From Sorangium cellulosum (GTDB taxonomy: Bacteria > Myxococcota_A > Polyangia > Polyangiales > Polyangiaceae), in the NCBI GenBank assembly GCA_020720045.1, contig DYPH01000071.1, forward strand, positions 1-32,225: DNA of 32,225 nt, read 5' to 3'. Both the position numbers and the translations under genes were made by a program. Each line of letters begins with the position of its first letter. Positions within the stretch are counted from its first letter, which is position 1. Below, piece after piece: positions 10,156 to 29,772 of the stretch. The notes under the pieces were generated by a model. That model did not search any database, was not told where the DNA came from, and saw only the letters and a program-made list of their open reading frames with translations.

Positions 10156-11049
10156 TCAGACGGCGACACCAAAGTCGCGCAATGCCTCATTGAGGCTCGT
10201 CTTCTGGTCGGTGCTTGCTTTCCGGGATCCGATAATGAGCGCGCACGGGATGTGGAATTCACCGGCCGGGAATTTTTTCGCCCGCGTGCCCGGAATGACG
10301 ACGGCCCGCTCGGGGATTTCCCCTTTGGATTCGACCGGTTCACTTCCGGTCACGTCGATGATCGTCGTCGACGCGGTGAGCACCACACCGGCGCCGAGGA
10401 CCGCCTCTTTGCGGACGCGAACCCCCTCGACCACAATCGCGCGTGAGCCGAGGAAGGCACCGTCTTCAATGATGACCGGCGACGCCTGCGGAGGCTCCAA
10501 GACGCCCCCAATGCCGACGCCGCCCGAAAGATGCACATTGCATCCGATCTGCGCGCACGACCCGACGGTGGCCCAGGTGTCGACCATCGTCCCGGCGCCG
10601 ACGTAGGCGCCGATGTTCACGTAGCCGGGCATCACAATCGCCCCACGCTCCAGGAAGGCGCCGTAGCGGACCGTCCCCGGCGGTACGACCCGAACGCCCT
10701 GACCGGCGAGATCGGTCTTTACGGGAATCTTGTCGTGAAACGCGAGCGGTCCGACCTCGAAAGACTCCATTTTCCGAAGCCCGAAGTACATCAAGATCGC
10801 CTGCTTCACCCAGGCGTGGACGGTCCATCGGTCTTCCGCGGGGCTCGAAGGCGGCGTAGCTACGCGAACTTCCCCACGATCTAGGAGGGCGATCGTCGCC
10901 TCGACGGCGGCCGCGTAGTCGGGTTCGCCGAGGAGCGCGCGGTTGGCGAAGGCGGCCTCGACCTTTTCCTTCAATGCATTGGCATCGAACTCCGCGCCGT
11001 CTCCCGCTTCGCGGACGGACGCGTTTGTCACTTCGGGCGATGAATCCAT
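10156..11049 (-). CDS. dapD: Tetrahydrodipicolinate N-succinyltransferase
   Basis: This transfers succinyl from succinyl-CoA to tetrahydrodipicolinate, the step before DapC and DapE. The 297-residue product has the N-terminal helical domain followed by a left-handed beta helix built of hexapeptide repeats (e.g. GAIVMPGYVNIGAYVGAGTM and IGCNVHLSGGVGIGGVLE), matching DapD over its length. The ATG at 11049 is supported by GAGGT 5 nt upstream. Compared with typical DapD, the N-terminus is extended by about 20 residues. Residues 10-23 (including VREAGDGAEF) are encoded by a copy of the dispersed mini-element at 10982-11022, and the normal domain begins just after it at ALKEKVEAAF. The gene lies directly downstream of the ndk terminator, so it needs its own promoter, probably in the AT-rich stretch at about 11055-11085. 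Confidence 0.95.
   Translation of the reverse strand: MDSSPEVTNASVREAGDGAEFDANALKEKVEAAFANRALLGEPDYAAAVEATIALLDRGEVRVATPPSSPAEDRWTVHAWVKQAILMYFGLRKMESFEVGPLAFHDKIPVKTDLAGQGVRVVPPGTVRYGAFLERGAIVMPGYVNIGAYVGAGTMVDTWATVGSCAQIGCNVHLSGGVGIGGVLEPPQASPVIIEDGAFLGSRAIVVEGVRVRKEAVLGAGVVLTASTTIIDVTGSEPVESKGEIPERAVVIPGTRAKKFPAGEFHIPCALIIGSRKASTDQKTSLNEALRDFGVAV
10982..11022 (-). repeat. Mini-element copy inside dapD
   Basis: This 41-bp segment is identical to 16175-16215 in the MOSC gene and nearly identical to 29735-29772. On the minus strand it starts GCGTCCGTCCGCGA and carries an imperfect hairpin, CCGTC paired with GACGG around an inner CGCG/CGGG stem. It is read in frame as residues 10-23 of DapD. 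Similarity between this copy and the MOSC copy continues a few bases beyond the 41 bp on the 10976 side (GATGC..ATGCA). No flanking direct repeat was found. Confidence 0.85.
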
Positions 11050-11117: not shown

Positions 11118-11191
11118 GCTCGGTGATCGCGTTCTCCGGTCCGGCATCCCGCCGGGCGGAGACAACCGCTTCGCGTCGCGATCGCTTCCGC

Positions 11192-15507: not shown

Positions 15508-16439
15508 AGAATCGTGCAGGGGGCGCCGAGCGCGACGCGCCCACCGAGGCTCGCGGCGGTGGCGAGGAGGTTCGCCCCGAAGACGGCGCTCCGCTTTGTT
15601 CCGACAACCCGCGGGTGGACCGTCGCGACTTGGGTAAGGGGTGCCGCTCCGACGTACGGGGCAATCTCGCCGGAATGTTCGGGGAGGGAAATGGAATTGA
15701 CCATCGGGCACCGGGAGCACGGTTTTACCGATTGAAATTCCACGTGATCGCCGACGCGAAAGCCGGCAAAATCGTCCTCCGCGAAGGCAGCGAGGCCATC
15801 AAGTACGAGATTGGGCCGGAACCGCTCCATCGGGATCCCAGCGCCAAGCGCTTCGAGGGATGCGACGACGGTTGCGAGAAAGGGGAACCCATCGGCGAAG
15901 CTAACTTCGTGGCCTGCGGGCGCATAGCGAGCGTCGACCGGGCGATGTTCGTCGTCAGCCAAATAGGCGAGACGTACCGGAAATCCCAAATATTCTGAGA
16001 ACATGGAATCCGCTTCGCCAGAAAAGCCTGCGCGCGCAGCGACCCGATCGTCCCAAATGGTGACCGTGCACGTCGCTCCGTCGGACGGGTCAAGCGGAAG
16101 ACGGAGCGAACGCATCTGCGCGTCCGCCCGGAACCGCCAAAGGCGGTGAGGAAACGGCGCGCAGAACTGCATCTGCATCGAACTCCGCGCCGTCTCCCGC
16201 TTCGCGGACGGACGCATAGACGGGAACGTCAGCCGAAGGATATCGCCGTCTTCAATGGCTGTTTCGACGAGCAGCAGCTTCGGAAACTCGCGCGCTGTCA
16301 CGAACTTCCCCTCGCGATCGACGAGCATAAAACGGCGGTCGTGACGAAAACCACGTGAAGTAATTGTCGCTTCTTTCACCGGGATCCCCGCAAGCGACTT
16401 GACCGGGTAGATCCAAAGCGAAACGACGACCGGGCTCAT
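15504..16439 (-). CDS. MOSC domain protein (MOSC_N + MOSC) carrying two mini-element insertions
   Basis: MOSC proteins of this type bind molybdenum cofactor and sulfur carriers, as in the YcbX / mARC family that reduces N-hydroxylated compounds. The 311-residue product shows the MOSC_N start (VVSLWIYPVKSLAGIPV), then FVTAREFPKLLLV. The MOSC core has FRPNLVLDG and the Cys-containing SVKPCSRCPMV, whose second Cys is the expected cofactor ligand region. Residues about 75-109 are foreign to the family: they are encoded by two mini-elements (16120-16168 with an 8-bp direct repeat, and 16175-16215), both leaving the frame open. ATG 16439 is used; a GTG two codons earlier is possible. The insertion sits between strands of the N-terminal domain, so activity may survive. 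Confidence 0.9.
   Translation of the reverse strand: MSPVVVSLWIYPVKSLAGIPVKEATITSRGFRHDRRFMLVDREGKFVTAREFPKLLLVETAIEDGDILRLTFPSMRPSAKRETARSSMQMQFCAPFPHRLWRFRADAQMRSLRLPLDPSDGATCTVTIWDDRVAARAGFSGEADSMFSEYLGFPVRLAYLADDEHRPVDARYAPAGHEVSFADGFPFLATVVASLEALGAGIPMERFRPNLVLDGLAAFAEDDFAGFRVGDHVEFQSVKPCSRCPMVNSISLPEHSGEIAPYVGAAPLTQVATVHPRVVGTKRSAVFGANLLATAASLGGRVALGAPCTIL
16120..16168 (+). repeat. Complete mini-element, 49 bp, in-frame insertion in MOSC gene
   Basis: The element starts GCGTCCGCCCGGAACC and ends GCGCAGAACT. It is flanked by the 8-bp direct repeat GCATCTGC (16112-16119 and 16169-16176). Inside is the hairpin ACCGCC-AAA-GGCGGT followed by GAGGAAACGGCG. Element plus one repeat copy is 57 bp, exactly 19 codons, so the host frame is kept. 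About 42 of 49 positions match the reverse complement of the VOC copy. Confidence 0.88.
16175..16215 (-). repeat. Second mini-element copy in MOSC gene
   Basis: Its 41 bp are identical to the copy in dapD (10982-11022) but are read in a different frame here (RPSAKRETARSS). The 49-bp element at 16120-16168 lies against its end, and the 8-bp target repeat of that element includes the first two bases of this copy, so the 49-bp element probably inserted second. Confidence 0.85.
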
Positions 16440-20333: not shown

Positions 20334-22445
20334 TCAGACCTTCTTCTCCCGGTTGGGGAGGATGGCCGCGATCGCCGCTTCGAGCTCGGGGATCGTGAAC
20401 GGTTTCTGGAGGAAGCGTACGTTGGGGGCGGCGGTCAGGTCGGCGATGTCGTCGGGGGCTGCGTAGCCGCTGACGAAGAGCGTCGGCGCCGCAAATCCCT
20501 GGGCTGCCAGATGTTCCTGGGTTTGTACGCCGTCGAGATCGGGCATTGTGAGATCGAGGATCGCAAGCGCGATCGTCGATCCATGTTCGCGATGCAACGA
20601 GAGAGCTTCGCGCCCCGAGGCAGCGAGAAGCGGTTTGAAGCCGAGGTGCTTCGTCATCCGCCCAAAGAGGTTTCGCAGCGCCGCTTCGTCGTCCACCACA
20701 AGGACGGCGGGCGTCGAATCGGTCGAAAGAACGGGTGTATTGGCGTTCGCCGCGAGCGGAAGGTAGACACGGAAGACGGTACCGTGGCGCTCGACGTCGA
20801 CGTTGCTCTCGACGACAAGAGCGCCGGCGTGGCGACGAACAATACCAAGAACTGCGGAGAGCCCCAACCCTCGCCCCTCAAGCTTGGTCGTGAAGAATGG
20901 CTCAAAGATTCGCGGAAGATGCTCATCGGCAATGCCGGTTCCGTGGTCGCGTACGCTCACGACGAAGTAGCGCCCCGCGAGGCAGTCGCTGCCGACGGGG
21001 GCGAGGCGGAACGCGTCCCGCGCGACGTGCTCGACGCGCGTTTCGACGTCGACGACGCCGTCTTTGCCTTCGAGGGCTTCGGAGGCGTTGAGGACCAAAT
21101 TCAGAATGACTTGCCGTAGTTGAGCGCTGTCGGCGAGCACCGGCGCCTCACCGCCATTCGTGCGGAAGACAAGCCGCGTCCGCTTCGGGAGCATTGCGCC
21201 GAGGAGCGTAAGCGTGTCGCCGACGAGGGCGGCACCGTCGACCTCCGAGAGCGTCGCGTTCGAGCGGCCCGCGTAGGAAAGGAGCTGGGTGGAGAGCTCG
21301 CTGGCGCGTCGCGCCGCGGTTTCGATCTGGTGGAGGGGGGCGTCCGGCCCTTCGAGGTTCGGATGCTCGATGCGGAGGAGGCTCGACGCCCCCATGACGA
21401 CGCCGAGGAGGTTGTTAAAATCGTGGGCGACGCCGCCGGTGAGAACACCAAGAGATTCAAGTCTTTGTGTCTCTGCGAGCTTCAGATCGAGGGAGCGCTC
21501 GCGCACTTCGCGGAGCCGCTCGTCGGTCACGTCGGAGACCGCGCCGACGATGCCGTTGCCGTGGCTCCGGGCAAAACGCCGCAGCCCGATCGACAGGTGA
21601 CGGCGCGCGGCGCCAGGAAATACGTAGGTCACTTCGCAGCGAGCGGCCCCTTCGGCAAGGGCTTGCGTCCGGGCGGCGTCGAAGGCGCCCCTCCCCTCGT
21701 CGTCGAGGGCACTTCGGAACTCGCCGATCGGAATGCGGCGACCACCGGCCCCTTCGCCAGGCGCCGAATGGAGGGATTGTGCGGGGAGCAGGTGCTCAGA
21801 AAGTGGCTTTGAAAGGACCAGTACTTCATCGAAAGCATTAATGAAGAACCAGCCGAAGCGGGCGAGCGACTGAGCCTCTTCGAGGACTCTCTCCCGCGCG
21901 CCGAGCCGCTCCTTGGCGAGCCGCGCGTCGAGGGTCGCCTGGCACGCCACCGCGAGATCACTAAGTGTTTTAACGACTTCGTCGTCGTAGGTGCGCGACG
22001 CGCCGTCGATCACACAGAGCGCACCGATCGGATGGCGCCGGGAATCATCGGCGTAAATCGGGACGCCGGCGTAGGCGACAATCCCCGCTTCTGTCGTGCC
22101 ACGGTTGAGGCGTAGCACCGGATGCTCGCGCGCGTCGTCGACGACCAAGGGCGCATTCAGTGCGACTACATACTTGCAAAACGAGTGCGTCAGCGGTGAC
22201 GTGCGGCGCGTCGCCCACGGCTCGTGGAGGCCGACCGCGCTCTTGAAGTGCTGGCGGGCGTCGTCGACGAAGGTGAGCAGAGACGTCGGGCTGTTCGTCA
22301 GCCGAGCCGCTAGGCGCGTGAAAAGGTCGAAGATTTCCTCGGGGGGTGATCCGGGGAGGCCCGTCTCCGCAAGGAGCGCGAGGCGCCCTTCATCGAGGAG
22401 GGTGGCGAGGAGAGCTTCGTCGGAGGGGAGATCACGATGGGTCAC
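20334..22445 (-). CDS. Soluble hybrid histidine kinase (GAF-PAS-HisKA-HATPase-REC)
   Basis: A cytoplasmic sensor kinase of 703 residues. A GAF domain covers about 30-175 (LTHSFCKYVV, APLVVDDAREHPVL, GIVAYAGVPI, IGALCVIDG), followed by a PAS-like domain at about 190-315 ending VGAVSDVTDERL. HisKA has His341 in GGVAHDFNNLLGVVMGAS. The ATPase domain has NLVLNASEALEG and GRGLGLSAVLGI. The C-terminal receiver has VVDDEAAL, the phosphoacceptor Asp in ILDLTMPDLDG and Lys in FLQKPF. The Cys in the GAF stretch occupies a position sometimes used for ligands, but no ligand can be predicted. It is a relative of the 13912-15507 kinase with an added GAF domain. No separate response regulator is next to it. 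Confidence 0.94.
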   Translation of the reverse strand: MTHRDLPSDEALLATLLDEGRLALLAETGLPGSPPEEIFDLFTRLAARLTNSPTSLLTFVDDARQHFKSAVGLHEPWATRRTSPLTHSFCKYVVALNAPLVVDDAREHPVLRLNRGTTEAGIVAYAGVPIYADDSRRHPIGALCVIDGASRTYDDEVVKTLSDLAVACQATLDARLAKERLGARERVLEEAQSLARFGWFFINAFDEVLVLSKPLSEHLLPAQSLHSAPGEGAGGRRIPIGEFRSALDDEGRGAFDAARTQALAEGAARCEVTYVFPGAARRHLSIGLRRFARSHGNGIVGAVSDVTDERLREVRERSLDLKLAETQRLESLGVLTGGVAHDFNNLLGVVMGASSLLRIEHPNLEGPDAPLHQIETAARRASELSTQLLSYAGRSNATLSEVDGAALVGDTLTLLGAMLPKRTRLVFRTNGGEAPVLADSAQLRQVILNLVLNASEALEGKDGVVDVETRVEHVARDAFRLAPVGSDCLAGRYFVVSVRDHGTGIADEHLPRIFEPFFTTKLEGRGLGLSAVLGIVRRHAGALVVESNVDVERHGTVFRVYLPLAANANTPVLSTDSTPAVLVVDDEAALRNLFGRMTKHLGFKPLLAASGREALSLHREHGSTIALAILDLTMPDLDGVQTQEHLAAQGFAAPTLFVSGYAAPDDIADLTAAPNVRFLQKPFTIPELEAAIAAILPNREKKV

Positions 22446-22552
22446 GGCGGCGGGAATGTCTCACCGATCGGTCATGCATGGGGGGGGAAATCGGCGGGCA
22501 AGCGTCGGCGATGGGCGGTGCAAACCGCTGCGTTTTCGACTACTCGCCAGCC

Positions 22553-23006
22553 ATGAACGGAGTTCCGAAGCTCGGCTATGTGATCATCTACGTGGCCGAC
22601 GTGGCGGCGAGCGTCGCCTTCTACGAGCGCGCCTTCGGCCTTCAGGCACGCTTCGTTCACGAGAGCGGCACCTAAGTTCCGTGCTCGCCGTTTCCTCGCC
22701 GCCTCCAGCGGCTCCGGGCGGACGAGCACCTACGCAGAGCTCGAAACCGGCGGCACCGCGCTGGCGTTTGCTGCCGAGTCGATGCCGGCGTTCCCGGGCG
22801 GCTTTGCGCCGAACCGGCGCGTGGAAAGACCGGCCGGCGCAGAGGTCGGGCTCGTCACGGACGATGTCGATGCATTGTACAAGCAAGCGGTCGCCGCCGG
22901 CGCCTTGGCGACGCTCGAACCGACGGTGAAGCCTTGGGGACAAACCGTGGCGTATGTTCGCGATCTTGATGGATTTCTTGTAGAACTTTGCTCGCCCGTG
23001 GGGTGA
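22553..23006 (+). pseudogene. VOC-family (glyoxalase-fold) gene broken by a mini-element
   Basis: The first 40 residues (MNGVPKLGYVIIYVADVAAS and FYERAFGLQARFVHESGT) are the start of a vicinal-oxygen-chelate protein and then meet TAA at 22673. The rest of the fold (AELETGGTALAF, GLVTDDVDALYKQAVAAGA, YVRDLDGFLVELCSPVG) continues in another frame to 23006. Between them is a 51-bp mini-element flanked by the 7-bp direct repeat GCACCTA (22668-22674 and 22726-22732). Removing 58 bp rejoins HESGT to YAELE and gives a continuous 131-residue frame, the usual size for single-domain VOC proteins (glyoxalase, dioxygenase or resistance-type; exact role unknown). The coding quality outside the insertion is intact, so the event looks recent. 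Confidence 0.92.
22675..22725 (-). repeat. Complete mini-element, 51 bp, with 7-bp target duplication
   Basis: On the minus strand the element starts TCGTCCGCCCGGAGCCGC and ends GAGCACGGAACT. It has a stem GCCGC/GCGGC around a short loop and the conserved GAGGAAACGGCG. The direct repeats GCACCTA lie immediately outside. This copy defines the ends of the family most clearly because the host reading frame shows what was there before insertion. Confidence 0.92.
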
Positions 23007-23015
23007 CGATCGCCG

Positions 23016-23744
23016 CTACTTTGCGAGAACGGGCACGAAGGTCCACCCCTCGGCGGCGAAGGGGGCGACGACCTCCGCGAGTTCGTCGAAAGGGGTGGCC
23101 GGATCGGCCTGCAGGGCGACCGTTTTCACGCCACCGGCGGCGACGAAACCGATTTGTTTCGCACAGTTGGCAACCGCGTTTGGGCGGAACTCCCCTTGTG
23201 CCGACCGGGAGAGGGCGACGCCGGGACCGATCGACGCGCAGCCGGGACCGACGGCACCGCCGGCGCTACGGAGGCTCACGCCGCTCGGGAGGATCATCAT
23301 GGAAAGCGAATGCGGCGCCACGGCAGCGCCCGCTTGGGCCGGCGCCTCAAGGGCGAGGTCGATGCCGCGCACCGCGCCGTGAAGGCGAAGGCGCGGGCTC
23401 CCGAAATACTGGCTCGTTGCGAGGAGTTCTTCGAGGAGCCGATAGCTTGTGGAGCCGTCGACCTCGATGGCGACGCCGGCGGCGCGCCCCCCACGATCGG
23501 CGCGCTGAAGGGCATCTCCGACGGGGACGAGGTAGAAATCGGCGAGCCCACGGCGTTTGAAGGCTTCGGGAGCACCTCGTGATGGGTCTCCAGAAAGGGG
23601 AATGAGCACGCTCCCATCGTGGGCAAGAATGGCCTCGGCGGTGACGGCGAACTGGATGCCGTCGGCGAGCGGTGCGTGGGGGGCCGTCGACGACGAGCAG
23701 CCGGCGAGGAGCGGGAGCAAGAAGGCGAAATACTTCGTAGTCAT
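23016..23744 (-). CDS. Lipoprotein with two ExbD/TolR-like segments
   Basis: A 242-residue envelope protein with a clear lipoprotein signal, LLAGC (Cys16). Two stretches resemble the periplasmic domain of ExbD/TolR: VAIEVDGSTSYRLLEELLAT (about residues 90-110) and VALQADPATPFDELAEVVAP (about 208-228), each followed by a short strand (RLRLHGA and WTFVPVLAK). ExbD itself is anchored by an N-terminal membrane helix and works with a proton channel; here there is only a lipid anchor, so a motor role is unlikely, and peptidoglycan or partner binding is an alternative. This assignment rests on pattern resemblance only. It is convergent with the broken VOC gene. Confidence 0.75.
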   Translation of the reverse strand: MTTKYFAFLLPLLAGCSSSTAPHAPLADGIQFAVTAEAILAHDGSVLIPLSGDPSRGAPEAFKRRGLADFYLVPVGDALQRADRGGRAAGVAIEVDGSTSYRLLEELLATSQYFGSPRLRLHGAVRGIDLALEAPAQAGAAVAPHSLSMMILPSGVSLRSAGGAVGPGCASIGPGVALSRSAQGEFRPNAVANCAKQIGFVAAGGVKTVALQADPATPFDELAEVVAPFAAEGWTFVPVLAK

Positions 23745-29734: not shown

Positions 29735-29772
29735 GCGAACTCCGCGCCGTCTCGCGCTTCGCGGACGGACGC
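29735..29772 (-). repeat. Mini-element copy, intergenic
   Basis: 38 bp matching the dapD and MOSC (16175) copies with one substitution in the shared core. The substitution makes the inner stem perfect: on the minus strand CGCG-AAG-CGCG inside CCGTC/GACGG with one bulged A. It lies in the 228-bp space between the S41-like gene and the Ser/Thr kinase. GACGCGTTTGT beside it (29723-29733) also occurs at the end of the dapD copy. Confidence 0.8.

Follow-up and report, generated by a model that had tools for sequence, protein, structure and literature searches.

A dispersed hairpin mini-element of Sorangium cellulosum and its copy within a VOC gene

Introduction

Dispersed hairpins that lie within genes, stay in frame and add a peptide to the product have been described as Rickettsia palindromic elements (RPEs) and as intragenic REPs (Di Nocera et al., 2013; PMC3733652), the hosts of intragenic REPs including recBCD genes. 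The RPEs as first described are given as ~150 bp in PMC10969869. REPs of the GTAG and CGTC superfamilies are small, high-copy, imperfect palindromes; the CGTC type, as characterised in PMC3733652, has an unpaired CGTC at one end and a stem of 8–9 bp with A-T first pairs, is without a dedicated transposase, and has its mobilisation left open there. MITEs are non-autonomous, have ends that form an inverted repeat and carry a target copy at these ends. It is not yet clear how REP-like hairpins spread, and the titles and abstract openings of the open-licence papers listed in our searches described no target duplication for them.

Here we describe a hairpin family, designated hereafter as family A, of which one copy lies in a VOC (glyoxalase superfamily) gene within a 32,225-nt stretch of Sorangium cellulosum DNA (the window). 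The window is contig C128 of G000, a 6.34-Mb draft genome of 357 contigs. The closest described kinds are RPE and intragenic REP elements; among the open-licence papers listed in literature searches there was no report of family A itself. Comparison of two related genomes yields ten clean pairs of filled and empty sites, together with a motif at the target and a short copy of it, so that the chemistry of movement becomes testable.

The interrupted VOC gene and its orthologue

At positions 22668–22732 of the window the VOC gene contains GCACCTA, 51 inserted bp (22675–22725, forward strand) and GCACCTA again. The 5' part of the gene (22553–22674, forward strand) begins with ATG at 22553 and as assembled is read for 40 codons up to a TAA at 22673–22675 (codon 41), formed by the last TA of the left direct repeat (22668–22674, forward strand) and the first A of the insert; the 3' part (22726–23006, forward strand) is open in the other frame, the 58 bp having moved the frame by one. 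Within the insert a left spacer, AGTTCCG (22675–22681, forward strand), precedes a 47-nt hairpin core, TGCTCG...CGAGCA (22682–22728, forward strand), and the GCA of the right direct repeat (22726–22732, forward strand) doubles as the end of the element stem. As the first-pass annotation had stated, deleting the 51 bp together with one GCACCTA, 58 bp in all, restores a stop-free frame of 131 residues, and the joined protein matched Pfam Glyoxalase (PF00903) with 62.1 bits against a cut-off of 20.6, which places it in the VOC/glyoxalase superfamily; the stop codon and the shift of frame by one that had been ascribed to the insert were likewise found. Given the TAA at the junction and the 58-bp gain, translation would end at residue 40 of the 131, and on the grounds of this stop and the shifted frame the gene is most likely null.

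The alignment with orthologues that had been proposed as a check was made with G001, the only further member of the genus encountered among the genomes searched across the order. Its VOC gene (G001:C731, locus L038) is intact, 89% identical across 131/131 residues, and contains a single GCACCTA without the 51 bp. Between the joined gene and this orthologue dN was 0.057 and dS 0.377 (ratio 0.15; neighbouring genes 0.03 and 0.18), with ratios of 0.19 before and 0.14 after the insert, in agreement with the earlier reading that the remainder of the gene is undecayed. As the gene is otherwise constrained, the loss of its reading frame probably postdates the divergence from G001. The further claim that the movement was recent is only moderately supported: the absence of the copy from G001 and the constraint downstream speak for it, whereas the VOC copy departs from the consensus by three substitutions outside the loop, which speaks against a newly made consensus copy, and none of the 163 family A copies collected offers an identical source, the closest of the others matching the VOC core at 42 of 44 non-loop positions.

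Copy number, distribution and anatomy of family A

The description of the insert as a mini-element was borne out, with the correction that it is one copy of a high-copy family. A blastn search with the VOC insert gave at least 61 matches within its own genome, itself counted, a lower bound with 40 of 274 first-look candidates scored. When 183 genomes of the order were searched with the 33-base core pattern at up to three mismatches, G000 gave 173 copies, G001 gave 67 and the remaining 181 gave none; a reversed-pattern control had no match. Among 39 relatives searched by blastn there were matches in four, namely the two of the genus and two with one short partial match each. A wider contig scan gave at least 38 family A stretches, which among the matches listed all belonged to one assembly and are thus uninformative on other taxa. 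A 23-base pattern had no exact match in viral contigs, where a phage origin was sought, and an Rfam scan of window positions 22400–23100 gave no match up to an E value of 5.

A typical copy consists of GCASCTGC, a 5-nt spacer such as ATCCG or AGTTC, a 47-nt imperfect hairpin (TGCKCG...CGMGCA) and NSTGC. Copies occur singly (83 of the 163 collected) or as arrays, the spacing of which is 57 in 33 of 40 cases and 56, 59, 61 or 81 in the remainder. The usual net gain per insertion is likewise 57 bp, equal to 19 codons; the VOC copy is the usual element with a spacer one base longer and for this reason gains 58 bp. Across 81 single copies the K/M pair of the outer stem (pair 4/44) was T-A in 39, G-C in 37 and neither in five, an alternation that is not evidence of many separate changes, since the types also resemble two subfamilies. 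Predicted folding was more stable than that of shuffled sequences for the consensus (z −3.2) and for the VOC copy (z −2.2; 10 of 200 shuffles equal it). The core was free of mismatches outside the loop and the K/M pair in 50 of 81 copies, a proportion subject to bias towards conserved copies, as these were collected by pattern.

A second family A copy in the window (16117–16163, reverse strand) is bordered by a perfect 8-nt direct repeat, GCAGATGC; at the orthologous place (L137) G001 holds a different core variant. At this and two further pairs of orthologous places (L016/L106 and L175/L140) the core is kept and the adjoining 8-nt repeats differ between the species. At one and the same GCAGCTGC site (L027 and L204), the orientation of family A in G000 is opposite to that in G001.

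Empty sites and copying of the target

Twenty-eight places could be aligned on both sides between G000 and G001, and ten of these, the VOC gene included, are clean empty sites; the other 18 are not, which counts against the explanation that we favour below. A first set comprised 18 G000 places with both flanks aligned in the G001 loci then collected. Nine were clean empty sites (the window, L009, L010, L019, L022, L083, L159, L166 and L168), four were occupied (by a decayed copy at L158, an opposite copy at L027, another family at L169 and an array at L179) and five were locally different (L015, L020, L023, L154 and L164). A second set of 11 pairs, ten of them aligned, yielded one clean empty site (L074), two occupied places (L112 and L137) and seven locally different ones, L118 and L167 having an apparent family A remnant. 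A pattern-free scan for gaps of 20–150 bp yielded 35 in all, and in 13 cases the similarity of the flanks was 70% or more; among these 13 were four 57-bp family A insertions, the 58-bp VOC insertion, one gap of 72 bp that holds a copy, and two 45-bp insertions of a second family, B.

The first-pass annotation had reported a 7-bp target duplication in the VOC gene. The repeat is real, and it forms part of a family-wide 8-nt repeat of consensus GCASCTGC that in this copy matches at seven of eight positions (GCACCTAA/GCACCTAC). Across 83 single copies the left and right 8-mers matched at a mean of 5.14 of 8 positions, compared with 4.44 after shuffling, with none of 5000 shuffles reaching the observed mean, and 23 of 81 copies matched at seven or eight positions (shuffled mean 11.9, maximum 22); some of the copies counted are orthologous pairs of G000 and G001 and so not fully independent. 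This matching beyond chance argues that part of the target is copied. The excess lies in columns 4, 5 and 7 (z 4.0, 3.6 and 2.5; 81 copies), no z exceeds 1.3 outside the eight columns, and columns 1–3 are almost fixed on the right side. On that side nearly every copy begins with GCA, also at L019 and L074, where the left side and the target have other letters, so that the right GCA probably belongs to the element, as the terminus of its stem. On this reading at least columns 4–7 are copied from the target, with 4, 5 or 8 nt as candidate lengths. Family A shares target site duplication with MITEs, as seen in the empty sites and the repeat statistics, with an excess in three of eight columns.

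Several observations count against plain duplication. Columns 6 and 8 are variable and without an excess of matches (z 0.7 and 0.4); L159 is flanked left and right by GCAGCTGC, the G001 site reading GCAACCGC; and at L074 the right repeat departs from its target. Left and right repeats differ at a mean of 2.9 of 8 positions beside cores that are near-invariant, a difference left unaccounted for by a duplication that has simply aged.

Search for a mobilising enzyme

Half-elements were sought in both genomes, which are fragmentary. Across the two genomes, lone left ends numbered 29 and 13 (against 4 and 2 for the reversed control) and lone right ends 13 and 10 (against 2 and 1). Forty such loci were viewed, and a Pfam scan of ten chosen ORFs beside nine of them revealed an ordinary domain in seven, none in three and no transposase; no autonomous partner was found among these ten.

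Both genomes contain Y1 genes that are distantly RAYT-like (NF047646, 36.1 and 41.0 bits, cut-off 80), one of six scoring above the cut-off of PF01797. A RAYT-driven REP is expected to flank a RAYT gene in inverted orientation. Within at most 1.5 kb on either side of these six loci there was no family A copy, and the Y1 genes examined have another hairpin upstream; a RAYT link of family A was rejected on these two grounds. A further family, C, has a hairpin behind the Y1 gene of L071 and a degenerate hairpin behind that of L068. At L126 a further Y1-like gene starts ~1.4 kb from two family A copies, which do not form a flanking pair.

Proposed mechanism and alternatives

We consider it likely, taking the proposal as a whole, that family A is a non-autonomous hairpin mini-element moved in trans, which copies a short target and is frame-neutral at 57 bp. 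An enzyme from elsewhere in the genome would insert it at GCASCTGC-like sites and leave a short target copy on both sides, as the empty sites and the matching repeats suggest. The usual gain would add 19 codons in frame, as is seen in several genes, and the 58-bp gain of the VOC copy, with its TAA at the junction, would give a truncated product and presumably a null gene. Selection would keep in-frame, harmless copies, and frame-breaking ones may last only in dispensable genes. For the VOC gene itself, the earlier claim of a mini-element inserted with a short target repeat is supported by the empty site in G001 and by the nine further empty sites.

In an alternative, the 8-nt repeat travels with the element: a 57-nt unit of spacer, hairpin and GCASCTGC would be taken out and joined to a matching site, with no target duplicated; the agent would be an IS200/RAYT-like single-strand transposase, or recombination, for example from a tandem array, and the site would be chosen by homology. 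Arrays are mostly spaced at 57 (33 of 40), the same figure as the usual gain, the right GCA goes with the element rather than with the target, Y1 genes distantly similar to RAYTs occur in both genomes, and according to PMC2817692 the known members of IS200/IS605 do not produce larger target site duplications. Unusual targets are nevertheless repeated on both sides of the element (GCAGGTGC at L009, GCAGATGC at L168 and GCACCTA in the window), and the Y1 genes have their other upstream hairpin and no family A at six loci. We therefore regard movement with an own repeat as unlikely, though it is the foremost competitor of target copying by an enzyme acting in trans.

An error of assembly or base calling, by which the organism would lack the 51 bp, or the one base that takes the gain from 57 to 58, is very improbable. 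G000 is a draft of many contigs, N runs adjoin some other copies and a repeat of more than 170 copies can mislead an assembler, but the VOC copy is a private variant among the 163 collected, and therefore not one of those misplaced here, and its junctions obey the family rule. Local replication slippage or template switching, which would combine a duplicated GCACCTA with a chance palindrome, accounts for the direct repeats flanking the insert and is scarcely credible for a member of a dispersed family of more than 170 copies.

Insertions within genes

Coding stretches were called by codon usage, the score being derived from 217 long ORFs, and the calls are not annotation. By this score the flanks are coding on one strand at 20 of the 92 family A places. 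The frame is kept at 12 of the 20 (ten open, two with a stop) and broken at the other eight, the VOC gene being one of the eight; the remaining 72 places lie between genes, have coding sequence on one side or on opposite strands, or could not be called. With thresholds set differently, a previous run yielded 15 and 9 of 76 places. Since the usual gain is 57 bp, a genic insertion adds 19 codons and leaves the frame unbroken. Seven of the ten open places share one frame, read as ARPPGTAxGGEETA or near it, a preference with a chance of 0.0035 given four equally likely frames, a model picked after seeing the data.

Seven host proteins were scanned, and in four the insert lies within the family match. 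These are MurE-like (TIGR01085, 252.6 bits, just below the cut-off of 257.3), YggS (TIGR00044, 185.6, cut-off 106.25), CrtC-like (NF045922, 162.3, below the cut-off of 400) and RecC-like (PF04257, 98.8, cut-off 25). In L167 and L074 the insert is outside the family match, and the L118 protein had no match. The CrtC-like insert is common to both species. The MurE-like host, likely a cell-wall gene, has the insert in G001, while its G000 orthologue is without it and reads on. Proteins including a MurE-like ligase thus bear a 19-residue insert, and the VOC gene shows the cost of one extra base.

Comparison with known repeats

Like the RPEs and intragenic REPs, family A combines in-frame genic insertion with a conserved peptide (ten of 20 places open, seven of them alike), and its RecC-like host recalls the recBCD hosts of intragenic REPs reported in PMC3733652. 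It differs from both in sequence and taxon, RPE being set apart here by description rather than by sequence alignment, and also in its short target copy and GCASCTGC site; the main text of PMC3733652 contains neither 'duplicat...' nor 'target site'.

As in the GTAG and CGTC REPs, the copies of family A are small, numerous, imperfect palindromes, and the absence of a dedicated transposase from the loci scanned recalls what is said of the CGTC type. The consensus core of 81 copies is without the unpaired GTAG end of the GTAG REPs. A reverse-strand CGTC does lie near one end, yet the predicted fold leaves only one of its four bases unpaired, and the stem is unlike that of the CGTC REPs; family A differs from both superfamilies also in its 47-nt core and its restriction to one genus of the order searched. 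As the REP tags and a flanking transposase were both wanting, we did not file it as a REP. Non-autonomy, ends forming an inverted repeat and the target copy at the ends are shared with MITEs, from which it is distinguished by a strong target motif, a unit of only ~49–52 bp and a search in which no parent element was found. RAYT/IS200-like systems are represented here by the Y1 genes, but family A is absent from the six Y1 loci.

Other mini-hairpin families in the genus

Three further families of repeat accompany family A. Family B (GAACTCCGCGCCGTCTCCCGCTTCGCGGACGGACG) occurs in the window at 10987–11021, 16180–16214 and 29737–29771, has a tandem spacing of 45 bp in L147, and accounts for the two 45-bp insertions relative to G001. 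Family C (GTTCTCCGATCCGGCG...) occurs in the window at 11130, 23937 (reverse strand) and 30922, as well as in L240 (1776–1864) and L208 (1485–1540), with spacings of 36 and 39 bp. Family D is a longer repeat around GGGCCCGCCGTCTCTCGC (window 19545, 27047 and 31930), which in G001 occupies a site held by family A in G000 (L169/L198).

The left-right repeat test gave, for 26 copies of family B, 5.42 versus 5.01 of 8 at the best of 64 registers (reached by 3 of 5000 shuffles) and, for 17 copies of family C, 4.35 versus 3.46 at the best of 120 registers (reached by 0 of 5000). As these registers were scanned and no clean 8-nt repeat emerged, target copying is claimed for family A only.

The repeat units of the sequence-unrelated families A, B and C are all multiples of three (A 57 bp, B 45 bp, C 36 and 39 bp), and each of these families has members that, lying in coding sequence, are read as short peptides. 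It is conceivable, though we hold it as a tentative and rather doubtful idea, that A, B and C are genome-wide, frame-preserving, protein-decorating mini-elements sharing one target-copying mobilising enzyme; such an enzyme would contrast with the duplication-free chemistry expected of REP transposases. At L151 and L126, units of families B and C adjoin and are read through in frame in a coding-scored stretch.
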